Below, in pieces: positions 8,677 through 53,909 of a DNA stretch of 64,000 nucleotides. Made by a program: the position numbers and the translations under genes. Location of the stretch: the NCBI GenBank assembly GCA_036941025.1, contig JAYMNP010000001.1:2316501-2380500 (forward strand). The letters run 5' to 3'. The notes under the pieces are model-generated. The model worked only from the letters and a program-made list of their open reading frames with translations, was not told the DNA's origin and searched no databases. Source of the stretch: Lachnospiraceae bacterium JLR.KK002 (GTDB lineage: Bacteria; Bacillota; Clostridia; Lachnospirales; Lachnospiraceae). Position 1 is the stretch's first letter. Each line of letters starts with the position of its first letter.

Positions 8677-9760
8677 TCCATTCCTGTTCTGCCAGTGCCA
8701 GCGTCATGCCATGTTCCGCAGTTTTTTTCCGGAGCAGGGCCGGCACATATTCTCTTCTGCTTCTTTCCATGGCGGCTTTTACCGCCGCCCGTTCGCATAT
8801 ATTGTCAATTCCCATGGTCTGTTCCACAAATTCCGAGGACGTGAAAGTTCCTGGCACCTGAGACAGCTCCTCCGCAGAAAAAGTATAAAAAGGAATCCGG
8901 TATTTTTCAGCAAATGCCAGAATTCCCTCTTCTTCTTTCTTCCGGTCTGCCGACGCCAGGCAGCAGACGCTCTCCGGAGCAATGTTCTCCTCTTTCAGCA
9001 CCCGTTTCACAAATCCTTCGATTTCTTCTGCTGCTTTTCCTTTTCTGCAGCCAATGCCCAGAACTACCGCCCTGGGAAACAGGCACAGGGTATGTTCCTG
9101 TTTCCTGAAATCATGAATCCCGGTGTAAATCCGGTATCCGCAGCTCTCCCGAATATCCCAGGACATCCACGTAAGTTCCTCCGGAAGATTTGCCGGAATC
9201 CCGGCAGAGGGCATTCCGGATGGTGCAATGCCATGGGGTTCACAATAATATCCAACTTTTTCTCCCCGCAGCACCGCACCGGAAATCTCCTTTGCCAGCC
9301 TGCGGTCAGCAAGTACAAGCCCCTGTCTGGCCGCAAATACATCCACAGCAAACTTTCCGTACAAATCCGTGGCGGTGGTAATCACCGGGACTGCCGGAAG
9401 TTCTTCTGCCAGAAAGGCGGCCCACTGGTTGCCGCCGCCCACATGGCCGGACAGAATGGGAATCACATAATTTCCCTGTTCATCCAGCACCAGTACCGCC
9501 GGGTCCGCAAATTTATCCCGGACAAAGGGCGCAATAGCCCGTACTGCAATGCCTGCAGCCCCCACAAACACCAGAAGCTGCGAATCCCCAAAAGCCACCC
9601 GGCACCACTCCTGCAGAGACTGTCCCGGCGTCCGGCCCATCCGAAGGGAGAGTCCCGGTCTGGCAGTCTGCAGCTTTTCCCCTATGTTTTCTGCAAGGGC
9701 TTTTCCGGTTTCTGTAAAATAAATCACAGAGGCCTGTCTCAAATCCATATACTGTTTCAT
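8660..9760 (-). CDS. cbiG: Cobalt-precorrin-5A hydrolase
   Basis: CbiG opens the delta-lactone of cobalt-precorrin-5A and releases acetaldehyde. The protein is 366 residues from the ATG at 9760, which has an AGGAAG site seven bases upstream and lies 4 bp after the cbiF stop; a longer frame would start inside cbiF. Family features are the SGHVGGGN motif in the central part and a C-terminal domain beginning near VLGIGCRKGK. It sits between cbiF and cbiH, the usual place in clostridial cbi operons. Confidence 0.92.
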   Translation of the reverse strand: MKQYMDLRQASVIYFTETGKALAENIGEKLQTARPGLSLRMGRTPGQSLQEWCRVAFGDSQLLVFVGAAGIAVRAIAPFVRDKFADPAVLVLDEQGNYVIPILSGHVGGGNQWAAFLAEELPAVPVITTATDLYGKFAVDVFAARQGLVLADRRLAKEISGAVLRGEKVGYYCEPHGIAPSGMPSAGIPANLPEELTWMSWDIRESCGYRIYTGIHDFRKQEHTLCLFPRAVVLGIGCRKGKAAEEIEGFVKRVLKEENIAPESVCCLASADRKKEEEGILAFAEKYRIPFYTFSAEELSQVPGTFTSSEFVEQTMGIDNICERAAVKAAMERSRREYVPALLRKKTAEHGMTLALAEQEWSVGFE

Positions 9761-41418: not shown

Positions 41419-41763
41419 CTAAGATACTTCTATTTCTTTAATCTGATGTTCATTTCCCTGTATCAGATATGTATGCTCGCTGCCGCAGTAAGGGCAGATT
41501 TTTCCATGCTCCACCGTAGGGTAGGTTTCCTGACAGTCTTCGCAGTAAGTAATGGCCGGGATGGTCTCTATTACCAGCTCGCATCCGTCCATCCGCTGGC
41601 TTTTGGAGCATTTCCATTTCCAGCAGTCCTTCAGATAATAAGGAATGATGGTGGAAACTTCTCCAATCTGAAGGGTTACTTTTGTAATTTTGTCTGCCTG
41701 GTTTTCCTCTGCCACACGCTCTACGGTTTTCACAATATGAAACACGATTCCTAATTCATGCAC
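41419..41763 (-). CDS. hypA: Nickel metallochaperone HypA
   Basis: A 114-residue HypA/HybF family protein. MHE at the N-terminus supplies the nickel ligands, and two CXXC pairs (Cys74/77 in CEDC and Cys90/93 in CPYC) bind structural zinc. There are no hydrogenase or urease genes nearby. It ends the operon of a CooC-type ATPase and an ACS-like protein, which suggests that it delivers nickel to that system. Confidence 0.88.
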   Translation of the reverse strand: MHELGIVFHIVKTVERVAEENQADKITKVTLQIGEVSTIIPYYLKDCWKWKCSKSQRMDGCELVIETIPAITYCEDCQETYPTVEHGKICPYCGSEHTYLIQGNEHQIKEIEVS

Positions 41764-41787
41764 GGCTGCTCTCCATTCTGTGTCCCG

Positions 41788-44685
41788 CTATTTTATATGA
41801 GCCTGTTTTCTTCCTGTCTTCCGCTTTTCCGCAGTTTTCCCAGGTCTCCCGGTCTTTTTCCCGGCTTTTTTCACTGCCGGCTTATTGGCGAAAATGCTCT
41901 TAAATGCCTTTCCTGCCGCATAGGCTCCGATTTCCTTAAATTTGTCCTCGGATCTGCTCATCTTTGAGCATTCAGGATGATCCCGGTGGAGTCTGATAGC
42001 GTCAAATTCGCATTTGGTGGTACATACGCCGCAGCCAATACACTTGTTCTCATCCACAATGGACACGCCGCAGCTTAAGCAGCGTCCTGCTTCCAGATGT
42101 ACCTGTTCTTCCGTCAGTGTCTTATGGGCATCCCGGAAGGAATGTTTATGGTCAATCTTTTCATCCATGCCTGCTTCCTGACGTCCGATGGTGTCATAAC
42201 CTTCCACCTTAATATTCTTCTTGTTCAGTTCATGGAAATCCCGGCGGTTCCGGCCAATGGTCATGCTGGTGCCCGGATGTACATAACGGTGCAGGGATAC
42301 GGCCGCATTCTTGCCGGCTTCAATGGCGTCAATGACAAACTGAGGCCCTGTATATACATCTCCGCCCACGAAAATATCGGGCTCTGCAGTCTGATACGTC
42401 AGAGCATCCGCTACCGGGTAATTGCCATGCCAGAATTCCACTTTGCTTCCGTCCAGCAGACCGCCCCATTCAATGCCCTGTCCGATGGCAAAGATGACCT
42501 GAGCACAGTCCACGGTTATCAGCTCGTCTTCGTCGTACTGAGGATTGAATTTTCCTTCTTCATCCAGTGTGGCGGTACATTTCTTAAATACCACGGACTG
42601 TACCTTTCCGCCGGAATCTTTGACAATCTCTTTCGGCCCCCAGCCGTTGTTGATTTTAATTTCTTCTTCCAGTGTTTCCTGAATCTCTTCATCGGAGGCG
42701 GGCATGGTCTCTCTGGATTCCAGACAGAACATTTCCACATCTTTTCCGCCGAAACGGTATGCGGTTCTGGCACAGTCGATGGCTACGTTTCCGCCGCCAA
42801 TCACAATTACTTTGCCCTCCAGCTTCTGCTCCTGGTCTTCCGTTGCATGATGGAGGAAGTTCACTGCAATGTCAATGCCTTTCGCGTCATTTCCGGGAAT
42901 AGGCGGAATCTTGCCGCCCTGGCAGCCGATGGCGATGTAGAATGCCTGGTATCCTTCCCTGCGCAGTTCATCCAATGTTACATCTTTGCCCACTTCCACG
43001 CTGCATTTTATCTCAACGCCAAGTGCACGAATCACGTCAATTTCTGCTTCAATCACGTCTTTTTCCAGTTTGTAGGAAGGAATGCCGTAGGTCATCATTC
43101 CGCCCGGCCTTGCATGTTTCTCAAATACCGTGGGCTTATAGCCTTTTGTCGCCAGATAATAAGCGCAGGATAATCCGGCAGGGCCTGCTCCGATAATGGC
43201 AATTTTCTGCTCCCACTGAGTCAGGCGGTTAGAGGCAATCACCACCGGAGGAATGTATCTGGTTTCTTCATGGAGATCCTGTTCTGCAATGAATTTCTTA
43301 ATATCGTCAATGGCCACCGGAGCGTCAATGGTGCCTCTGGTACATGCCATCTCGCATCGTTTGTTGCAGACACGTCCGCAGATGGCCGGGAATGGGTTGT
43401 CTTTTTTAATCAGCGCCAGTGCTTCCTGATATTTTCCCTCTTTTGCCTTGCGGATGTAGCCCTGTACTGCAATATGGGCCGGACAGGCTGCTTTACAGGG
43501 CGCAGTACCTGTTTTGTAACAGTTAATCCGGTTGTTGTCCCGGTAATCTTCGTCGTATTTGTCTTTGCCCCATACCAGTTTGTCGGGCAATTCGTGTTTG
43601 GGATAACGCACTTCTTTCCCGTTTTTCTTACAGAGCTTCTGTCCCAGCTTCACTGCGCCTGCCGGACAGTATTCCACACATTTTCCGCAGGCCACGCATT
43701 TTTCTTTTTCCACCTTTGCGGTAAATGCGCTGCGGCTCATATTTGGGGTGTTAAACAACTGGGAGGTTCTCAGGGCGTTGCAGATATTCACATTACAGTT
43801 GCAGATTCCGAAAATTTTGTTTTCTCCGTCAATATTGGTAATCTGATGTACGAATCCGTTGTCCTCGGCTTTGCGGAAAATTTCCATGGCTTCTTCGTAT
43901 GTAATATCATGGCCTTTGCCTGTCTCACGGCAGTAGTCTGCAAAGTCTCCCACACCGATACACCAGTTCATCTCGTCGTCGCCGCAGCCTTCTCCCAGTA
44001 TCTGGCGGCTGACGCGGCAGGAACACTGGCCCACGCCGATATGGCCCTCATATTTTTTCAGCCAGTAGGAGATATGCTCCAGGTCAATGGTGCCGTTTTC
44101 CATGGAAATGGCTTTTTCCACCGGAATAACATGCATACCGATACCTGCGCCTCCCGGAGGTACCATGTGGGTAATCCCGTCCAGAGGAATAAAGGTCATG
44201 CGCTCAAAGAAGCTGGCCAGAGCCGGATGTTCCCTGAGACGTTTGTTGCCTTCCGGCCCTTCTTCCATATTAAAGAGTTCTGCGGAACCGGGTACAAACA
44301 TGGGCAGGCAGTATCTGCGGTCTGTGGGCCCCGGAATGGAGCCGTAATGGTCGTAGTTATTGCCATAGTCATATTCCAGAAGGCCGATATAACTCATTTC
44401 ATCCAGCACTTCCTGGAAATGCTCTTTCTCCTCTTCCTTCACATCGTTCATTTTCCAGAGTTCTTCAATTTTGTAATGGTGGCGGACTTTCATGGTCAGG
44501 GCAATGTCCGCCATTTCCTCTGTGACGATTTCCGCCAGCCCCCAGTATTCCGGGTCGGCCACCGTCAGTCCTTTCAGTTTGTGTTTGGCCACATCTGTAA
44601 TCTTTCTTCCAAGTTTCAGTATTTTTTCACTGGGTACCTTGTCTCCCATGTGAGGCGGAATAACCGCTTTGCTCATTTCCGGCAT
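41788..44685 (-). CDS. FAD-dependent oxidoreductase with multiple iron-sulfur domains
   Basis: A 965-residue cytosolic protein. Domains in order: an N-terminal region of ~300 residues with several cysteine motifs (GQCSCRVSRQ, ICNCNVNICN); a ferredoxin motif CVACGKCVEYCPAG; a GltD-type N-terminal iron-sulfur domain (CKAACPAHIAVQGYI, ICGRVCNKRCE); an FAD/NAD(P) domain with AIIGAGPAGLS and VIGGGNVAIDCA; and a C-terminal ferredoxin (CIGCGVCTTKCEF). It resembles GltD or NfnB fused to extra ferredoxins. It could feed electrons to the dehydratase-type activase. Translation follows the ACS-like gene by 19 bp. Confidence 0.85.
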   Translation of the reverse strand: MPEMSKAVIPPHMGDKVPSEKILKLGRKITDVAKHKLKGLTVADPEYWGLAEIVTEEMADIALTMKVRHHYKIEELWKMNDVKEEEKEHFQEVLDEMSYIGLLEYDYGNNYDHYGSIPGPTDRRYCLPMFVPGSAELFNMEEGPEGNKRLREHPALASFFERMTFIPLDGITHMVPPGGAGIGMHVIPVEKAISMENGTIDLEHISYWLKKYEGHIGVGQCSCRVSRQILGEGCGDDEMNWCIGVGDFADYCRETGKGHDITYEEAMEIFRKAEDNGFVHQITNIDGENKIFGICNCNVNICNALRTSQLFNTPNMSRSAFTAKVEKEKCVACGKCVEYCPAGAVKLGQKLCKKNGKEVRYPKHELPDKLVWGKDKYDEDYRDNNRINCYKTGTAPCKAACPAHIAVQGYIRKAKEGKYQEALALIKKDNPFPAICGRVCNKRCEMACTRGTIDAPVAIDDIKKFIAEQDLHEETRYIPPVVIASNRLTQWEQKIAIIGAGPAGLSCAYYLATKGYKPTVFEKHARPGGMMTYGIPSYKLEKDVIEAEIDVIRALGVEIKCSVEVGKDVTLDELRREGYQAFYIAIGCQGGKIPPIPGNDAKGIDIAVNFLHHATEDQEQKLEGKVIVIGGGNVAIDCARTAYRFGGKDVEMFCLESRETMPASDEEIQETLEEEIKINNGWGPKEIVKDSGGKVQSVVFKKCTATLDEEGKFNPQYDEDELITVDCAQVIFAIGQGIEWGGLLDGSKVEFWHGNYPVADALTYQTAEPDIFVGGDVYTGPQFVIDAIEAGKNAAVSLHRYVHPGTSMTIGRNRRDFHELNKKNIKVEGYDTIGRQEAGMDEKIDHKHSFRDAHKTLTEEQVHLEAGRCLSCGVSIVDENKCIGCGVCTTKCEFDAIRLHRDHPECSKMSRSEDKFKEIGAYAAGKAFKSIFANKPAVKKAGKKTGRPGKTAEKRKTGRKQAHIK

Positions 44686-44704
44686 AATGTTCTCCTTTCT
44701 TTTC

Positions 44705-45427
44705 TCATCCGCTGTAACTGTTTCGGTGTAATTCCTTCAGTCCTTCCACTTCATCGCAAATCTGCTTCAAACTGCAGGCGTTGCAGTCCATGGAAAGATT
44801 TTTCAGTACATGATCTATTGCTTTTGTAATCTGTTCTGATTTTTTTAACCGGGCTTCCAGCTCTGCCCAGGGAAATTCCGGTCTGGTGACAAACATTAAT
44901 TTTACCGCTTCCACATCCCTGTTCTTATGATATGCTGCCAGAAACATACTGCCCACCTGGGCAAAGCCCAGTCCTTTCCGGAGGGCCTGTCTGCCCACCC
45001 GCACCGCCTCCCGCTCCTGCGCGGCGGAAACCCGCATCATAAACCCTTCGGGAAACAGGCGGTATCTGATGTACTCCAGGTTCCGTATACGGTTGTACAG
45101 CTCATTGCCTTCTCCCAGGCTGCCCTGTTTCATGCGTACCGCCGCAATTCTGGCATAAGGCCAGTCTTTACGGATTTCTCCCAGGTCTTTTCCGTACAGC
45201 AGGATTTCATCCTCCGGCACCAGTTCCTGATTCGTGGTAAGTATGGTGCTCCCCAGGGCCGGAAGTGTGCCTCCGCCCAGTTCATAAGCCATATCGCTGC
45301 GAAGAATCATGGCCTCTTTGCCCGTATTTTTCCAGCAGCTCTCTCCATGCTTATTCAGCCTCCGGGCCGGATATGCTTCCAGTCCTGCCAGTACTTCCCG
45401 CAGCACGTCGTCATACAGTTTCATCAT
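44705..45427 (-). CDS. Protein resembling a part of acetyl-CoA synthase (CdhC-like)
   Basis: A 240-residue protein. The central stretch (YELGGGTLPALGSTI, VPEDEILLYGKDLGEI, FMMRVSAAQEREA) is similar in pattern to the beta-subunit of CO dehydrogenase/acetyl-CoA synthase. The C-terminus has a cysteine cluster, Cys215-X2-Cys218-X5-Cys224. The known A-cluster spacing is different, so it is not simply an ACS. The start overlaps the stop of the small membrane protein gene by one base (TAATG). With CooC and HypA around it, a nickel site is plausible. The match is by eye. Confidence 0.55.
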   Translation of the reverse strand: MMKLYDDVLREVLAGLEAYPARRLNKHGESCWKNTGKEAMILRSDMAYELGGGTLPALGSTILTTNQELVPEDEILLYGKDLGEIRKDWPYARIAAVRMKQGSLGEGNELYNRIRNLEYIRYRLFPEGFMMRVSAAQEREAVRVGRQALRKGLGFAQVGSMFLAAYHKNRDVEAVKLMFVTRPEFPWAELEARLKKSEQITKAIDHVLKNLSMDCNACSLKQICDEVEGLKELHRNSYSG

Positions 45428-45606
45428 TACAGCCTGCGCTCCCGTTTCACCCGGTCATGCCATTTTTCCAGGTAAGGCTCCAGGGCTGCTGTCAGCTTCA
45501 TATCCAGGTTGAAAAAATAAACGGTAAAGGAAATCACAAAAAACGCAACTGCTGACAGGCTCACCACTTTCAGCACTTTTTTCACTGCTTTTCCGGTTTT
45601 CTTCAT
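45427..45606 (-). CDS. Small single-pass membrane protein
   Basis: A 59-residue peptide: a Lys-rich N-terminus (MKKTGKAVKKVLK), one hydrophobic helix (VVSLSAVAFFVISFTVYFF), and an amphipathic tail ending RVKRERRL. It overlaps the activase gene by 4 bp (ATGA) and the ACS-like gene by 1 bp, so it is coupled at both ends and clearly belongs to the operon. It may tether the complex to the membrane. No homologue is recognised. Confidence 0.75.
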   Translation of the reverse strand: MKKTGKAVKKVLKVVSLSAVAFFVISFTVYFFNLDMKLTAALEPYLEKWHDRVKRERRL

Positions 45607-46409
45607 ATTCTGTCCCCCTTACCCATTCCCTTTTGTCTGGCAAATTCTGCCGCTCCAAGGGCTCCGATTAACTGAGGGTCCACGGGGAGTTCAATGACCT
45701 TCAGCTTCAGTACTTTTTCAATGGCGGCTTTCAGCCCTTCGTTCTTGGCACATCCGCCTGTCAGGGTGATTCTGTCCACCGCTCCCGCCTTTTTGGACAT
45801 AACGAAGCACCGTTTTGCCACGGACAGCTCAATGCCCGCCGCAATCTCGTCCATGGGCTTTCCTTCCCCTACCAGGGAAATTACTTCACTTTCGGCAAAC
45901 ACCGTGCACTGGGAGGTAATGGGAATGACGTTTTTCGCCTTCAGGGCCAGTTTTGAAAATTCCGGCAAATCCATCTCAAAGGCCTTTGCCATGGCTTCAA
46001 AGAACCGCCCGGTTCCTGCCGCACATTTGTCGTTCATGGCAAAATTCTGTACGGTTCCGTCGGTATCCACAGCAATTCCCTTTACATCCTGTCCTCCAAT
46101 ATCAATAATGGATCTGACCGTAGGGTCTGCCACATGGACGCCCATGGCATGACAGCTAATCTCTGAAATATTTTCATCAGCAAACGGAACTTTATTTCTT
46201 CCGTATCCGGTTCCCACCAGATAAGCCAGATCTTTGGCGCTCTCAAGTTCTTCTACCTGTTCTATGGCTTCATCCAGGGCCGCCTGTGCGCTCAGCACAG
46301 AATTGATACGGCTTTTCAGGGTGACATTTGCCGCCATTTTTCCGGTTTCATCTATAATCACACATTTGGTATAGGTACTGCCTGAATCGCAGCCTCCAAA
46401 ATATCTCAT
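45603..46409 (-). CDS. ATP-dependent activase of the 2-hydroxyacyl-CoA dehydratase type (HgdC-like)
   Basis: A 268-residue homodimeric ATPase of the ASKHA fold. The ATP loops GGCDSGSTYTK (residues 5-15) and IIDIGGQDVKG are present, with Cys129 (NDKCAAGTGRF) and Cys168 (TSQCTVFAES), which ligate the inter-subunit [4Fe-4S] cluster. It injects an electron at very low potential into a partner, here presumably the proteins at 46657 and 48210. The partners of known homologues are dehydratases, benzoyl-CoA reductases or double-cubane cluster proteins. Confidence 0.9.
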   Translation of the reverse strand: MRYFGGCDSGSTYTKCVIIDETGKMAANVTLKSRINSVLSAQAALDEAIEQVEELESAKDLAYLVGTGYGRNKVPFADENISEISCHAMGVHVADPTVRSIIDIGGQDVKGIAVDTDGTVQNFAMNDKCAAGTGRFFEAMAKAFEMDLPEFSKLALKAKNVIPITSQCTVFAESEVISLVGEGKPMDEIAAGIELSVAKRCFVMSKKAGAVDRITLTGGCAKNEGLKAAIEKVLKLKVIELPVDPQLIGALGAAEFARQKGMGKGDRI

Positions 46410-46462
46410 ACTTTCGTCCTTTCTGTCTCATGTTTGTTCCTCGGTCTGTGATACGCATCCTG

Positions 46463-46616
46463 CTGTGAAAGCCGGAGGGTTTCACAGTACGTAACTATTC
46501 AGCCTTCGGCTTCATAGTTACTGAACCCGGCCTGTTCCAGTTTGCCTTCGGCAAAGAGGCCGGATTCTTCTCAACCATTACACATTCTCACGGACTTTGC
46601 AGCAAGTGCAAAGTCC
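46463..46616. other. Intergenic region with four strong hairpins
   Basis: The 247-bp gap before the activase gene contains stems CTGTGAAA/TTTCACAG (46463-46487), GTAACTAT/ATAGTTAC (46491-46521), CCGGCCT/AGGCCGG enclosing TTTGCC/GGCAAA (46527-46563), and GGACTTTGC/GCAAAGTCC (46592-46616). No coding frame or T-tract terminator is apparent. It could set the ratio of upstream to downstream operon products, or be a structured leader. Confidence 0.55.
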
Positions 46617-46656
46617 TGGGCTGAACTGTTACCACAGTACAGCAGCTCCTGACATT

Positions 46657-48210
46657 TTACCAGGAGGCGGCATCGTCGATTTCTTCCAGGCTTGGGTCCA
46701 GCGGTTCTTCCCGCAGCACGCTTCGCATATAACGGTTTACGTCCTGTCTGAGACTCGCCCTTGGCACCACGCGGGGATCCATCAAATCGTGTACCGCCCA
46801 GATTAACCGGATACCGTGTTCTCTGGCCTGTTCTTCAAACAGCCCGTGCATTCCGTCCAGGGCTTTACAGCTCATGTGCTCCCACAGGATAACCATATCC
46901 GCATGGAACTGCTCGCAGAATCTCCACAGATCATCCAGCAGCACCTTATATCCTCCGTGGGTACGGTTGCGCATAATCATATTTTCGTAGAGATGGGCCA
47001 TATCGTAAATGGCCTGCTCCGGGTCGTCCTCGGAAATCATTTTCGTGGACACCAGACTCAGCATATCCACCAGGGGCAGAATTCCCCAGCAGTTCTGCAG
47101 CCAGGGCAGGAAATCCGTATAATACTGGGCCTGCACGCCCCATATAATGGCCCGGTGGCGGTACTCCGGCACAATCATTTCTTTCTTCCTGTAAGACTCC
47201 ATGGCCAGCCGGGTAATCTTTTTGTCTGCCTCCAGAAAGGCCGGCACTTTTCCGCCGATGGCCATGTACACCGTCTCCGTATACAAGGCCAGATTTGCCC
47301 CGATGACCTGGGGATATTCCGTGGTACTTAAATCCAGCCATTCCATCCGTTCTCTTGTCTCCGCATTAAATCGTTTCGCACATGCAAAATATGCGTCCCA
47401 GTCCCAGGTCTCCCCGGTACAGTCTTCAATAAATTTAATGGCATTGCGGATTTCCTGAGCCGCATATTCCTGCACGCCTTCTTCCGTATGGCGGATAGGG
47501 GCCGCTAACTGGAAACAGGGAATGCCATGTTCTCCTTCCAGTCTTCTGGCTATTACGCCGTTTCCCATCAGACTGCCGTCGCAGGTGGTGTTGCACTGGA
47601 TGGCGCAGGCGCCGAAAATGGGATAATCATCGTCAATGGACACGCCCACTTCCGCCTCCGGCATGGGGCATACATCCCCGGAAAGACCGTATTCCTGCGC
47701 CACATCTATGTAAGGACACACTGCGTCCTGCTGCAGCAGCACACTTACATACACTGCGGGAATCTCCCGGCCCACGCCGATAAGATTGGGAAAACCGCAC
47801 AGCAGATGGGACATTTCATTTTCATCCAGGATAACCAGTTTTTTTGAAAATTCCTCATCGTTTCCAGTATTTTTATCGGCACGGAACATGTTTGCCATCA
47901 GCTTTGCAATATCTTCTACCACCAGATCATATTCCGTGTGGGCAATCCGGAGCTGATTTCCCCGAAGGCCCGCCGTGTGCCGGTCCACCATCATGGGAAC
48001 AGCCAGATAATTCAGCATCCAGCGGTACCGGAAAAATGCTTTCACATTGTTTTTATTCAGCATGAATTTCCCCAGGACGCCCATGGTATGAAGCCAGCGG
48101 CTGTAATCGTAAAGGGTGTCTTTCACGCCCCGCCATTCCCGGCGCCTGCGGACCTTTTTCCCTGGCCGGTACAAATCTCCCAGCCGTTCACTTCCGATTT
48201 TCCTGCCCAT
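46657..48210 (-). CDS. 2-hydroxyacyl-CoA dehydratase family protein (HgdA-like)
   Basis: A 517-residue protein of the HgdAB/BcrBC family, longer than the usual ~430. Cysteines likely to hold iron-sulfur clusters are in HLLCGFPN, FGACAIQCNTTCDGS and EHMSCKALDGM. It starts one base before the stop of the gene upstream (48210), so the two are coupled. These pairs normally remove water from 2-hydroxyacyl-CoA or reduce difficult bonds. The CoA substrate is not evident. Confidence 0.85.
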   Translation of the reverse strand: MGRKIGSERLGDLYRPGKKVRRRREWRGVKDTLYDYSRWLHTMGVLGKFMLNKNNVKAFFRYRWMLNYLAVPMMVDRHTAGLRGNQLRIAHTEYDLVVEDIAKLMANMFRADKNTGNDEEFSKKLVILDENEMSHLLCGFPNLIGVGREIPAVYVSVLLQQDAVCPYIDVAQEYGLSGDVCPMPEAEVGVSIDDDYPIFGACAIQCNTTCDGSLMGNGVIARRLEGEHGIPCFQLAAPIRHTEEGVQEYAAQEIRNAIKFIEDCTGETWDWDAYFACAKRFNAETRERMEWLDLSTTEYPQVIGANLALYTETVYMAIGGKVPAFLEADKKITRLAMESYRKKEMIVPEYRHRAIIWGVQAQYYTDFLPWLQNCWGILPLVDMLSLVSTKMISEDDPEQAIYDMAHLYENMIMRNRTHGGYKVLLDDLWRFCEQFHADMVILWEHMSCKALDGMHGLFEEQAREHGIRLIWAVHDLMDPRVVPRASLRQDVNRYMRSVLREEPLDPSLEEIDDAASW

Positions 48211-49409
48211 TACTTCTCACCTCCCCTGCTTTTCCGCAGCTTTTTGATTTCGATACTTTCCACAAAGGCCTGTACCCGTGTCCGAAGCTGGCCGGAACTG
48301 CCTACCGCATAAGGCCGGTCTACGGAAAGTACCGGATATCCGTATTCCTCCCGCAGTACATGGGTGCCCACCATCCGCTCGTAGGCCCAGTAATCGCAGA
48401 ATTTCATCTGCTCATAAATGATTCCGTCCGCATGGTATTCTTCGGCAAGCTGATTTACATAGAGACGCCTTCCCTGAATCTTCTCCCGGTTCATGTAACG
48501 GGCGCACTGGCTGGCATACATGTAATGGCGGCACACCTGTGTCAGCACATCTTCTTTCTGATTCAGGGGAATCTCCTCCCGGCCCGGCAGTGCTCCGAAA
48601 CAGAACCGGTCTGCCACCACCAGCGCTCCCGCTTCTTCTATGAGCTTTATCATATCCACATCGTCAATCTCCGAACCTGCCACCATCACTCTGGCCCGGA
48701 ACTGTTTCCGGTCGTCGGGCTCTCTGGCCTTTAACTCCTCCAGGGTTTCTTCCAGCATATCCATCAGCATGTCTTTGGGGCATACATAGGAAGCCAGTGT
48801 GAGCATGTGGTATTCATATCCTGTAATCCGGGGATTTTCTTCTTTCCGGAAATCTCCGATTTCCGTGAGCAGCCGGCAGATCTTATTGTGATTCTCCACT
48901 GCCTGCTCCAGGGCTTCTTCTGAAATATCAATGCCGTATATCTCATGAAGGGGCTCAAGAATCTTACTCCTGCATTCCGACACATACACAGACAGTCCGT
49001 TATCGTCGGCTTTCATGGGAATCTCCATATAACGGTAGAAAAACTTTTCTTTGGACATGGTGTTCAGAAGTTCCATGTTCTCCACCGCCCGATTAATCAT
49101 GGAGCAGGCGTCCGGCGCAATCAGACCGTCCAGGAACTGATAACCGCCCTCAATGGCCCGCTCCAGCAGGGCCCTGCTGTATTCGCACAGAAAACTGGTC
49201 ATATAATAGGTACCCATATCCATGGAACCTGTTCTGGGCGCCCGAAGCCGGACGGTAAAGACTCCCGGAAGCTCCAGCAGCACTTCCGGCACCAGGCTGC
49301 ATACAGTTCCAATACAGATTTTCCCCTCTTCCTGGGCTTTGCGAACCAAATCGTTATTGGCCTCCTCCAGCAACCGTTCAAACTCATATAAATGTTTTAA
49401 ATCTTTCAT
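48210..49409 (-). CDS. 2-hydroxyacyl-CoA dehydratase family protein (HgdB-like)
   Basis: A 399-residue protein of the same superfamily. Relevant parts are IGTVCSLVPEVLL at the N-terminus, LIAPDACSMINRAVEN, MVAGSEIDDVDMIKLIE, and EQMKFCDYWAYER, the usual cluster-binding positions. It follows the CooC-type gene by 12 bp and overlaps the HgdA-like gene. It should form a heterodimer with that protein and be reduced by the activase. Confidence 0.87.
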   Translation of the reverse strand: MKDLKHLYEFERLLEEANNDLVRKAQEEGKICIGTVCSLVPEVLLELPGVFTVRLRAPRTGSMDMGTYYMTSFLCEYSRALLERAIEGGYQFLDGLIAPDACSMINRAVENMELLNTMSKEKFFYRYMEIPMKADDNGLSVYVSECRSKILEPLHEIYGIDISEEALEQAVENHNKICRLLTEIGDFRKEENPRITGYEYHMLTLASYVCPKDMLMDMLEETLEELKAREPDDRKQFRARVMVAGSEIDDVDMIKLIEEAGALVVADRFCFGALPGREEIPLNQKEDVLTQVCRHYMYASQCARYMNREKIQGRRLYVNQLAEEYHADGIIYEQMKFCDYWAYERMVGTHVLREEYGYPVLSVDRPYAVGSSGQLRTRVQAFVESIEIKKLRKSRGGEK

Positions 49410-49421
49410 GTATCCTCCTTT

Positions 49422-50189
49422 TCAAACACGCTCCAGGATATGTATCTTCTCCAGGGCCGCCCGGACGCCCCGGACAATGGGCGCATCCTCCGGCAGGTAA
49501 AATACGTTTTCTCCTTTTAAATCAAATTCTGTCAGTGCCCTGTCATCCTGTATTCTGGCCAGAACCGGAAGATTTCCCACATCCATATAAGAGGCTGCTT
49601 CCGGAGAAGGCAGGCGGTTGAAAATCACCCCGGCTTCCTCGTACATCACCAGTTCATCCGCTACTTTCCGTATAGTCTGCACCACCTGGGTCCCTTTTCT
49701 GCTGGAATCCGTAATCAGAAGCAAATGGGTCACCTTTTCCATTACACGCCGGTTAATCTGTTCAATCCCGGCTTCTCCGTCAATCACAATATAGTCAAAA
49801 TTTCCGGAAAGAATCCCGATTACTTCTTTCAGATAACTGTTAATCTTACAGTAGCACCCTGCCGCTTCCGGTCTTCCTACTGCGATAAAAGAAAACCCGT
49901 CCTGCTCCACCAGTGCGTCAAAAATCCGGTACCTTGCTTCTCCCAGGAGTTCAATGGCTCCTGCGGCGTCCCCGCGTTCCGCCTGAGCCACTACCTCTCT
50001 GCGGATATCGTCCACCGTCACTTTTGTCTCCAGACCCAGGGCAGTGGAAAGTCCCACTGCCGGATCCGCGTCAATAGCCAGTATCTTTTTTTCAGGAAAA
50101 GAAGACACCAGCACTTTCACCATTGCAGCCGCCAGGGACGTTTTTCCCACGCCTCCTTTCCCGGCTACTGCCAGAATTTTCGCAGCCAT
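49422..50189 (-). CDS. CooC-type nickel-inserting ATPase
   Basis: A 255-residue P-loop ATPase of the MinD/CooC group. The deviant Walker A is AGKGGVGKTS, followed by AIDADPA. The CXC motif GCYC carries Cys112 and Cys114, the same positions as the nickel-binding cysteines of CooC1. It is the first gene of the operon. In CO dehydrogenase systems CooC loads nickel in the active cluster, but no CO dehydrogenase catalytic subunit gene is in the window. Confidence 0.87.
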   Translation of the reverse strand: MAAKILAVAGKGGVGKTSLAAAMVKVLVSSFPEKKILAIDADPAVGLSTALGLETKVTVDDIRREVVAQAERGDAAGAIELLGEARYRIFDALVEQDGFSFIAVGRPEAAGCYCKINSYLKEVIGILSGNFDYIVIDGEAGIEQINRRVMEKVTHLLLITDSSRKGTQVVQTIRKVADELVMYEEAGVIFNRLPSPEAASYMDVGNLPVLARIQDDRALTEFDLKGENVFYLPEDAPIVRGVRAALEKIHILERV

Positions 50190-51361: not shown

Positions 51362-51988
51362 CTGAACCACTACCGGCTAAAGCCGGTAGGTTCAACATGC
51401 TGCTAAAGCAGCCTAAAGTTGTGCATGCTGCAAGTTATCGGTATCCCATTACTTTTATCCTATCTCAAAGTTATCAGAATTGCTCCTCTCTTGCAGATCT
51501 TGATTCTTGATATACTCCTTGATGATTTCATCTGTTACATTTCCACTGCTTGCTACAAAATAGCCTCTTGCCCACAAGTGTTGACCCCAGAATTGCTTAT
51601 TTAATTCTTTATATTCCATCTGCAATTTTCGCGACGTATTCCCTTTTATATACTGTACCAACTTACTCGCTGACAAATGCGGCGGAACGGATACCAACAG
51701 ATGGATATGGTCATTTCCAACATGTCCTGCCAGTATTTCTACTTCATTGCTCTGGCAGATGATTCTGATGAGTTCTCTTGTTCTTATCGCTATTTTTCCT
51801 GTTATCACTGGTTTTCGATATTTTGTTATCCAGACTAAATGGTACTTGATATCGTATGTGCAATGTGCTGACTTTCTGTAATTTTCCATTTCTTTCACCT
51901 CAAGTTTAGTATCTCTGTTTTCACCTTTTCTAAACTTGAAGCTATGGGGTTTACCTAAAGGTTTCGCCTAAAGGCGAGGGTTTTAACC
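51362..51988 (-). mobile_element. IS200-like element
   Basis: About 627 bp without target duplication. A stem CTACCGGC/GCCGGTAG lies at one end and further small stems (CGCCTAAAGGCG) at the other, as expected for subterminal hairpins of IS200/IS605 elements. Removing it restores the host frame as ...CIMGLIAMAVFLG.... The ends are accurate to about 3 bp. Confidence 0.8.
51455..51889 (-). CDS. tnpA: IS200/IS605 family transposase TnpA
   Basis: A 144-residue Y1 HUH transposase. The HUH motif is NDHIHLLVSV and the catalytic Tyr is probably in KEYIKNQ near the C-terminus. The start MENYRKSAHCTYDIKYH is typical; the frame extends three codons further. The length is normal and it appears intact. 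Confidence 0.92.
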   Translation of the reverse strand: MENYRKSAHCTYDIKYHLVWITKYRKPVITGKIAIRTRELIRIICQSNEVEILAGHVGNDHIHLLVSVPPHLSASKLVQYIKGNTSRKLQMEYKELNKQFWGQHLWARGYFVASSGNVTDEIIKEYIKNQDLQERSNSDNFEIG

Positions 51989-52444: not shown

Positions 52445-53909
52445 ACCACTTTACAACTTTTCCATAAAAAAAATGTCATACAGGACTTTCTGATGTATAA
52501 TAAGTTTGCAAACAAAAAAATACGAAAGAAAGTGATCCTGTACGACAGACTTATTATACAACGAAAAAACTATAATTGGTAGACTTTATCATTATTTTTA
52601 CATTTATTTTGAGGCTTGTTCCATTCCTACAGCCGAGACATTGGTCCTGCTCCTGCTGTCCATACTGACACTGGAGTCAGCGGATTCCATCCGTTTCCTT
52701 TACAGACATTTCCTGTCAAAGCTAACAGATAAATCCCTGAATGCCTTTTACTATGCCTGCTCCTATGCCAAAGTGGATTATTCCAGGTTTATGAATGCAA
52801 CAGCATCTATGGCATTGAAACTAATCCCGAAATCCTTAGAGACGCAGCCCGTTTTTTTATGCATGGATGATACCATTGTTCCCAAATATGGAAAGAAATT
52901 TGAGGATGTCTCAAAACTCTTTGACCATTCCGCGCACAACGGCAGCGGCTACCTGAATGGGCACTGCTTTGTAAGTGTCATGCTCTGTGTGCCAATGTGG
53001 GATAAAGGCAAGATTGTTTACCAGGCGTTTCCGCTTTCCTACCGTATGTGGCAGAAAGAAGAGTCAAAATTAAAGCTGGCTGCTTCCATGGTACGCCAGG
53101 CCATGCCTGAATTACAGGAAAAGGCGAATGTCATTATCCTATGCGACAGCTGGTATACAAAAGGGGATCTGGTTTCTGTCGTGGATGAATACCCAAACCT
53201 TGGCCTAATCGGAAATGCAAGGTATGACTCTGTCCTTTATGACCTTGCCCCGCAGCCGACCGGAAAAAGGGGCAGGCCTGCAAAACATGGGAAACGTCTT
53301 TCGGCGGAAAAAGATTTTACACTTTCGGATGAAAAAATAGGCGGTTATTATATTGGGATGCGCCGTGTCCTTACAAATATTTTCGGCACAAGGGAAGTTT
53401 TTGCCTATGTGACAGCCACAGAGAAGGAAGGCGGTTCCAGGCGCCTGTTCTTCAGTACGGTTTTCCCCACACAGCTGCAGATTTTTTGTGCATGGCAGGA
53501 AAAGACCCCCCTGAACCAGACGGGGAGTGCATGGATGGATTACATCCCCTTGTTCCTGTACTCATTCAGATGGAAGATAGAAGTCAGCTATTACGAACAG
53601 AAAACCTTCTGGTCACTATGCAGCTATATGGTGCGCAGCCGGAAAGGGATTGAAATGCTGGTTAATCTGATCAACATAGCTTATTGTGCGATGAAACTGC
53701 TGCCATATCAGGATGAAGCATTTTCAAAGTACCGTAGGGAAAGCGCACAGGATTTCAGGTTTGTGCTCAGCGAGCGGATCAGGCAGGAGGTATTTTTTGC
53801 CACTTTCGTGAAAAAGAGCGAAAGTATAATAAAATCATCTGCCCTTATGAGAGCCTTAAAATACCTTGTTCAGCAAAAGGAGCGCTATTTATAATAGTTG
53901 TAAAGTGGT
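52445..53909 (+). mobile_element. IS701/IS4-like element
   Basis: 1465 bp with 14-bp perfect terminal inverted repeats ACCACTTTACAACT. It is flanked by the 10-bp duplication GATTCTTTAC (52435-52444 and 53910-53919). It interrupts a membrane protein gene on the other strand. Confidence 0.9.
52641..53894 (+). CDS. IS701/IS4-like transposase
   Basis: A DDE transposase of ~417 residues: first Asp in FLCMDDTIVPKYG, second in IILCDSWYTKGD, and the Glu in WKIEVSYYEQKTFW. The same frame is open upstream to 52536 but without ATG, so the true start is unclear; TTG at 52641 or a non-standard start further up are options. The catalytic region is intact. Confidence 0.85.
   Translation: MVLLLLSILTLESADSIRFLYRHFLSKLTDKSLNAFYYACSYAKVDYSRFMNATASMALKLIPKSLETQPVFLCMDDTIVPKYGKKFEDVSKLFDHSAHNGSGYLNGHCFVSVMLCVPMWDKGKIVYQAFPLSYRMWQKEESKLKLAASMVRQAMPELQEKANVIILCDSWYTKGDLVSVVDEYPNLGLIGNARYDSVLYDLAPQPTGKRGRPAKHGKRLSAEKDFTLSDEKIGGYYIGMRRVLTNIFGTREVFAYVTATEKEGGSRRLFFSTVFPTQLQIFCAWQEKTPLNQTGSAWMDYIPLFLYSFRWKIEVSYYEQKTFWSLCSYMVRSRKGIEMLVNLINIAYCAMKLLPYQDEAFSKYRRESAQDFRFVLSERIRQEVFFATFVKKSESIIKSSALMRALKYLVQQKERYL

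Follow-up and report, generated by a model that had tools for sequence, protein, structure and literature searches.

The closest described systems are BzdNO, MbdON and HadBC, which consist of two PF06050 subunits with an activase, and DCCP/DCCP-R, in which one PF06050 protein is paired with an ATP-dependent activase. We analysed a stretch of 64,000 nucleotides from Lachnospiraceae bacterium JLR.KK002 (assembly GCA_036941025.1, contig JAYMNP010000001.1, positions 2,316,501 to 2,380,500; hereafter the window) that carries a related operon. Read from 50189 to 41419 on the minus strand, the operon encodes a CooC-type ATPase (COOC), an HgdB-like subunit (HGDB), an HgdA-like subunit (HGDA), an activase (ACT), a 59-residue protein (TM59), a relative of acetyl-CoA synthase (ACS) named ACSL, a large FAD oxidoreductase (OX965) and HypA (Table 1). 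As in BzdNO, MbdON and HadBC, two PF06050 subunits are accompanied by an activase, and HGDA resembles HadB, BzdO and MbdO in three cysteines and in fold. Unlike these systems, the locus has nickel-related partners and no known pathway genes recurring nearby, and HGDA is, by alignment offsets, about 70–100 residues longer at the N-terminus than the BzdO/MbdO/HadB-type subunits. The ATP-dependent activase and the six cysteines found in HGDB are shared with DCCP/DCCP-R, and HGDA, too, finds its best profile match in DCCP; however, DCCP/DCCP-R has one PF06050 protein, whereas two different ones are tied here to ACSL and a nickel-type chaperone. We propose, at a probability of about 0.42, that the set encodes a nickel-dependent, ATP-driven reductase of the HgdAB/benzoyl-CoA-reductase/double-cubane type in which ACSL is a nickel-iron-sulphur carrier or partner.

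An earlier note on this DNA, made from the sequence alone, had described the eight genes as one nickel- and ATP-dependent reductive system. The genes it named are all present on the minus strand where it had placed them, and family scans agree. The observation is genuine and of smaller scope than in that note, the core of interest being the ACSL-AcsF-HGDAB-activase unit. In a sample of 299 genomes of the family, ACSL (E≤1e-3) was found in 24 and HGDA (E≤1e-20) in the identical 24, a coincidence with a chance of 10^-35 if descent is ignored. These carriers are spread over different genera, and both genes are missing from the only further genome sampled in the genus of the window. Neighbouring genes were counted on 80 ACSL loci, the best 80 of 494 confirmed ACSL stretches from one species-level collection, some of them on cut contigs. 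The activase was present on 76, TM59 on 73, HGDA on 68, CooC on 63, HGDB on 62, the oxidoreductase on 43 and HypA on 39. The co-occurrence of the genes was thus borne out for a six-gene core, CooC-HgdB-HgdA-activase-59aa-ACSL, which is a conserved unit, and less so for the oxidoreductase (43/80) and HypA (39/80). With this unit conserved and an ACS fold in the 240-residue protein (see below), neither of the two outcomes named in the note as refuting it was seen.

Twelve of the 80 loci had no neighbouring HGDA. Five of these were searched genome-wide and HGDA was found elsewhere in all five (5/5), with HGDB adjacent in four and one 435-residue open reading frame (ORF) away in the fifth. Near one relocated HGDB-HGDA pair, an ORF read by eye as NifH-like and two as NifD/NifK-like were seen (L141:12684-16423; L and G denote our numbered loci and genomes). 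Six of the remaining seven loci are truncated, the contig ending no more than about 310 bases from ACT or ACSL; in the other, L127, some 870 bases are present upstream of ACT and do not contain HGDA. A search of 398 genomes of the phylum matched 71, among which, besides the window genome, clear ACSL was present only in G462; the other matches resemble ordinary ACS by their frames, mostly of 700–800 residues. The ACSL-AcsF-HGDAB-activase combination was not found in a literature search limited to open-licence papers, and absence from print is not claimed; nothing was found in the same range of papers on hydroxyglutaryl-CoA dehydratase together with CooC and nickel.

HGDB, HGDA and ACT have the architecture of an ATP-driven low-potential reductase. 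Both subunits scored over the PF06050 (HGD-D) cut-off of 28.4 bits and ACT over the TIGR00241 cut-off of 125.4 bits, which places them in the activase/HGD-D superfamily. The relatives of ACT include MbdQ (9gai_D, E 4e-60) and the activator 1hux (E 4e-55), and its C129 and C168 are present in 84/85 alignment rows. The six cysteines of HGDB (C37, C75, C102, C270, C302 and C338) are kept in 78–79 of 79 rows, and each of them lines up with a cysteine in both DCCP (7yyl, 6eno) and BzdN (8s02). C270 has no cysteine counterpart in HadC (3o3m_B) or MbdN, so that HGDB does not have the HadC set. Against NF040772, the DCCP equivalog model, HGDB scored 151.4 bits, below the cut-off of 350. The double-cubane centre guessed at in the earlier note fits the HgdB-like subunit by its cysteines, which probably hold an [8Fe-9S] cluster. 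In HGDA, C181, C210 and C448 are each present in 79/80 rows. MbdO has a cysteine at each of the three aligned positions, and so does BzdO, the last of them in a weak second stretch; with HadB the first two align and the alignment ends before the third; and the three match three of DCCP's six. The HGDA model has a pLDDT of 86.5, and its best fold matches are HadB, BzdO and MbdO, with DCCP close behind. TM59 has a 19-residue hydropathy peak of 2.24 and an NLDMK motif (N33, L34, D35 and K37 in 66/66 rows, M36 in 65/66). It stands after HGDA in L046 and before HGDA, in the same strand order, in L047; because of this placement it may belong with HGDAB.

A PF06050 pair with an activase is known architecture, and HadB is the best fold match of HGDA. 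The set may accordingly be read as a conventional enzyme, a 2-hydroxyacyl-CoA dehydratase or an acyl-CoA reductase accompanied by its activase, in which ACSL would be a nickel-free [4Fe-4S] or CoA-binding helper and CooC and HypA would serve something else. A flavoprotein like BaiCD/bilirubin reductase, with FMN and FAD/NAD domains, lies near the core on seven loci (56–97% identical to the L120 copy), and ORFs beside the ACSL cluster of L043 (632-6345) resemble, by eye, GlcD, acyl-CoA dehydrogenase, EtfBA and a nickel racemase of the LarA kind; both would suit such an enzyme. We regard it as unlikely, since CooC accompanies ACSL on 63/80 loci, yet 14/24 carriers have no match of the carbon monoxide dehydrogenase (CODH) family, and HGDB has the six double-cubane cysteines instead of the HadC set. 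Besides L043, no hydroxyacid or CoA-transferase genes were recognised by eye in 26 neighbourhoods, most of them not family-scanned.

The 240-residue ACSL is what links the proposed nickel-dependent reductase to ACS. The CdhC model PF03598 gave 21.9 bits with ACSL, under the cut-off of 24, and a single-sequence phmmer search with ACSL against PDB matched no ACS. An ACSL profile searched against PDB did match ACS, and the predicted fold also contains ACS domain 2. By profile and predicted fold, ACSL is a true relative of ACS, corresponding to its domain 2. ACS/CdhC has about 730 residues, and in comparison ACSL has no domain 1, no CxC of Ni-d, and a histidine near the place of the fourth cysteine. 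C215 and C218 align with the first two A-cluster cysteines in global hhalign and MAFFT alignments, and in a HMMER alignment for L156; the local hhalign alignment stops before them. C224 and H234 are conserved, but their spacing and the residue differ from the third and fourth ligands of ACS, and the alignments disagree there. The label ACS-like in the earlier note holds for domain 2 and the CxxC, and has to be restricted in that only the front of the A-cluster motif is kept, without the CxC of Ni-d.

The CxC of COOC at residues 112–114 is kept in 72/72 rows, and a P-loop is also present. Cys112 and Cys114 of CooC-1 are described in PMC6006190. The earlier assignment as CooC was right as to Cys112-X-Cys114, but the protein is closer to AcsF than to the CooC of CODH. 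Two kinds of CooC were seen by eye in three acetyl-CoA pathway clusters, one beside a CODH-sized gene and the other between AcsV-like and AcsD-like genes; from the acs gene order we take these to be cooC and acsF, respectively. In blastp, COOC-type rows were nearer acsF (131–161 bits) than cooC (80–99 bits) in 24/24. In the tree, the window-type rows, 13 acsF rows and 14 cooC rows formed three groups with supports of 99/99, 100/100 and 74/82; since the NifH-like outgroup sits on a very long branch, the tree is in effect unrooted and long-branch joins are flagged. Being nearer AcsF in sequence, the operon's CooC is a putative AcsF-type nickel-inserting ATPase. AcsF is the nickel chaperone of ACS. 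The gene acsF is mentioned in PMC10134865.

Other nickel-related proteins occur with the core. HypA has M1-H2-E3 in at least 97% of rows and C74, C77, C90 and C93 in 34/34; it scored over the PF01155 cut-off, and with TIGR00100 it gave 80.8 bits, below the cut-off of 88.1. HypA over cut-off is enriched in carriers (20/24 against 66/275 of the other genomes; Fisher p 1e-8, descent uncorrected). HypB and small histidine-rich ORFs were scanned for on 102 loci, a few being copies of one contig. HypB lies inside the cluster at 9 distinct loci, and the L097 copy matches TIGR00073 at 249.9 bits. Among 15 raw matches for a histidine-rich ORF, seven loci (L047, at 8866-9138, L043, L048, L120, L123, L128 and L130) have one with a similar tail, by eye roughly LLxYMxxHN; L049 has one without this tail, and the rest look like chance frames. 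The L047 copy has no Pfam match. These ORFs recall, in composition only, CooJ, a nickel protein of 12.6 kDa with 16 histidines according to PMC6006190.

The operon has no CODH gene. No match of the prismane/CODH family was found in 14/24 carriers, this genome included, nor in 12 of the 20 carriers that are at least 90% complete; the other 4/24 are less complete, so that some absences of CODH may be gaps. In this genome there is no PF03063 match, and CdhD was matched only below cut-off, in an 803-residue frame. CooC serving a CODH is therefore unlikely in those 14 carriers. No match to the large subunit of NiFe-hydrogenase was found in 18/24 carriers, again including this genome. With neither client matched in this genome, the client of the nickel chaperone is probably something in this gene set, with ACSL the obvious candidate; urease, lactate racemase and other nickel enzymes were not searched for. 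The reaction is probably nickel-dependent, judging from these gene associations.

The domain 2 and CxxC of ACSL and the AcsF-like character of its CooC, AcsF being a chaperone of ACS, would also agree with a nickel site in ACSL that is itself catalytic, a mini A-cluster for C1 or acyl chemistry, with ACT-HGDAB as its ATP-driven reductive activator or electron donor. Beside one ACSL cluster (L041:1443-3985), two neighbouring ORFs resemble, by eye, the one-carbon enzymes FolD and Fhs. Reducing a nickel enzyme into its active state with the help of ATP has a precedent, since PMC12176620 describes the nickel of methyl-CoM reductase being reduced by an ATP-driven iron-sulphur complex; that complex shares with our scheme low-potential electrons driven by ATP towards nickel, as an analogy only, with other proteins and clusters and no homology claimed. 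A catalytic ACSL is the main rival to our scheme and seems less likely to us. The Ni-d motif and the rest of ACS domain 3 are missing, HGDA outnumbers ACSL in about 7/24 genomes, which is odd for a dedicated activator, and a full-length CdhD, the corrinoid protein, is missing from 23/24 carriers, being present in G026 only.

The same rarity of CdhD bears on the idea that Lachnospiraceae without the canonical enzymes use the set as an alternative CODH/ACS for fixing CO2 into acetyl-CoA. PMC7000372 reports a Lachnospiraceae enrichment that labels acetate from 13C-bicarbonate and has no ACS gene, and names Pseudobutyrivibrio xylanivorans and Butyrivibrio fibrisolvens as lacking CODH/ACS; strains of both species have ACSL (L056, L058). 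However, G144, the genome matched to the organism of PMC7000372, has no ACSL (E≤1) and no HGDA (E≤1e-20), which rules out the ACSL set as the missing ACS of that organism, Ca. Galacturonibacter soehngenii. Given the absence of ACSL and HGDA from G144 and the presence of full-length CdhD in 1/24 carriers, it is unlikely that this system makes acetyl-CoA in the usual way, and an alternative CODH/ACS is highly improbable.

OX965 and HypA have, in sequence, the features of an already described IsrA-type module, and the window thus holds two joined modules, CooC-HGDB-HGDA-ACT-TM59-ACSL and IsrA-HypA. Kronen 2023 (PMC10134865) describes IsrA as an FAD oxidoreductase of 901 residues that has, besides four canonical [4Fe-4S] sites, a Cys6 site containing two CxC; for 988 IsrA homologues, the paper gives HypA within five genes for 73% and HypB for 56%. 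OX965 agrees with the IsrA-type (clade 9) proteins in size, the Cys6 site with two CxC, the FAD domain, further [4Fe-4S] motifs and a nearby HypA. Its C221, C223, C242, C295, C297 and C302 are present in 41/41 rows, like the Cys6 site of IsrA. Architecture and adjacent HypA are thus common to both; unlike the IsrA-type module elsewhere, OX965-HypA is joined here to CooC-HgdBA-ACT-ACSL. A second locus of this genome, at about 3.07 Mb of contig 1 (L170:9781-13599), has the order hypB, IsrA-like gene (912 residues, 46% identical to OX965) and hypA, with no HgdAB or ACSL beside it. In G144 an IsrA-like gene, also 46% identical to OX965, lies beside hypA (L202:6228-9264). Because the IsrA-type module is known and stands alone, the presence of HypA argues less strongly that the HgdAB part contains nickel, and its use as proof of such nickel is weakened by the separate HypB-IsrA-like-HypA locus. 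The BaiCD-like flavoprotein near the core in a second group of loci suggests that the flavoprotein partner may change.

From homology, motif conservation, co-occurrence and synteny we infer the cluster types, the nickel, the electron path and the membrane tether of the proposed reductase as follows. Electrons would reach ACT, possibly supplied by the IsrA-type flavoprotein. With ATP, ACT would pass electrons of very low potential into the six-cysteine cluster of HGDB, probably [8Fe-9S], and from there they would move to HGDA, whose open [4Fe-4S] site with three cysteines would reduce a small substrate. ACSL would be a stripped-down ACS that keeps domain 2 and the first A-cluster cysteines. The AcsF-type ATPase would load nickel onto it, with help from HypA, HypB or the histidine-rich protein in some lineages, and ACSL would then act as a nickel-iron-sulphur partner or carrier shared by one or more HGDAB pairs. 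TM59, probably a membrane anchor, would tether the complex to the membrane.

Several observations weigh against this scheme. The candidate third and fourth A-cluster ligands are placed differently in ACSL, with His for Cys, and ACSL ends before the Ni-d CxC (C596/C598), which is Cys in 18/18 ACS. The ACSL model is weak around the A-cluster ligands, with block means of about 55–73 pLDDT. In profile comparisons DCCP (E 2e-15) is closer to HGDA than BzdO, MbdO and HadB are (3e-7 to 3e-6), so that it is the fold and the cysteines from which HGDA is read as the active-site subunit. The IsrA-type module, to which HypA and HypB belong, is also found by itself. No recurring pathway genes in the neighbourhoods point to a substrate. 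Finally, L191 has HGDB-HGDA-ACT-TM59 with no ACSL or CooC seen within 19.5 kb.

The last observation has to be seen together with copy number. More than one HGDA match was found in eight genomes; in G034 the second HGDA adjoins a fragment of a second ACSL, hence HGDA was counted as exceeding ACSL in about seven of the 24 carriers. In G234, two of the three HGDA matches are pieces on different contigs, probably of one gene. Several HGDB-HGDA pairs also stand alone. The excess of HGDA, the lone pairs and L191 suggest that ACSL, the AcsF-type ATPase and the activase are helpers on which one or more HGDAB enzymes draw in common, and the excess fits the sharing of ACSL in our scheme.

Junctions between the eight genes are mostly short or overlapping. 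The single wide gap (46410-46656, between HGDA and ACT) is filled by a dispersed repeat with 18 matches genome-wide, 7 of which (the window copy included) are 95–100% identical over query bases 25–166. Next to the operon lie two ORFs read by eye as transposases, one IS200-type (51455-51898) and one of another kind (52641-53894), for which no family search was made. On other ACSL loci, a DtxR-type metal regulator (PF01325, PF02742; L029:12318-12758) was found in the flank; in all, 13 loci have such a regulator in the flanking sequence analysed, two being copies of one contig and many being from Pseudobutyrivibrio, so that shared descent may account for it.

Table 1. Genes and motifs of the operon, with positions in the window
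Feature	Position	Strand	Family or relative
AcsF/CooC-type ATPase (COOC), 255 aa, CYC at residues 112-114	49422..50189	minus	best solved relative CooC 3kje, E 5e-16
Cys112-Tyr-Cys114 codons in COOC, CooC metal-site motif	49848..49856	minus	
HgdB-like / double-cubane type subunit (HGDB), 399 aa	48210..49409	minus	PF06050 303.4 bits
HgdA-like subunit (HGDA), 517 aa	46657..48210	minus	PF06050 122.9 bits
ATP-dependent activase (ACT), 268 aa	45603..46409	minus	TIGR00241 222.6 bits
TM59, 59 aa, one hydrophobic stretch, probably membrane anchor	45427..45606	minus	
ACS-like protein (ACSL), 240 aa	44705..45427	minus	PF03598 (CdhC) below cut-off
ACSL motif C215-x2-C218-x5-C224-x9-H234	44726..44785	minus	Cys in 93/93 rows, His in at least 97%
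IsrA-type FAD/multi-[4Fe-4S] oxidoreductase (OX965), 965 aa	41788..44685	minus	PF07992, PF14691, Fer4
HypA nickel metallochaperone, 114 aa	41419..41763	minus	PF01155 E 2.2e-32

ACS is tied to the acetyl-CoA pathway. If the proposal is true, a stand-alone relative of ACS, in organisms mostly without that pathway, is linked to an ATP-driven low-potential reductase and would add a nickel enzyme to those known, which numbered nine, ACS among them, in a 2018 review (PMC6006190). It would also take double-cubane chemistry beyond iron and offer a hint about the evolution of the A-cluster. We tentatively go further and suggest that the set may represent a new nickel-enzyme class, in which a double-cubane reductase driven by ATP has nickel in its active site and is matured or partnered by a relic ACS, in mostly non-acetogenic Lachnospiraceae and some other anaerobes including spirochaete metagenome-assembled genomes. 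The function is a common one, with 494 confirmed stretches in one species-level collection, and the cultured carriers, which include Pseudobutyrivibrio ruminis DSM 9787 and Clostridium gasigenes DSM 12272, make it open to test. The gene set occurs in gut, rumen and other anaerobic bacteria, and it points to an undescribed reaction in them.

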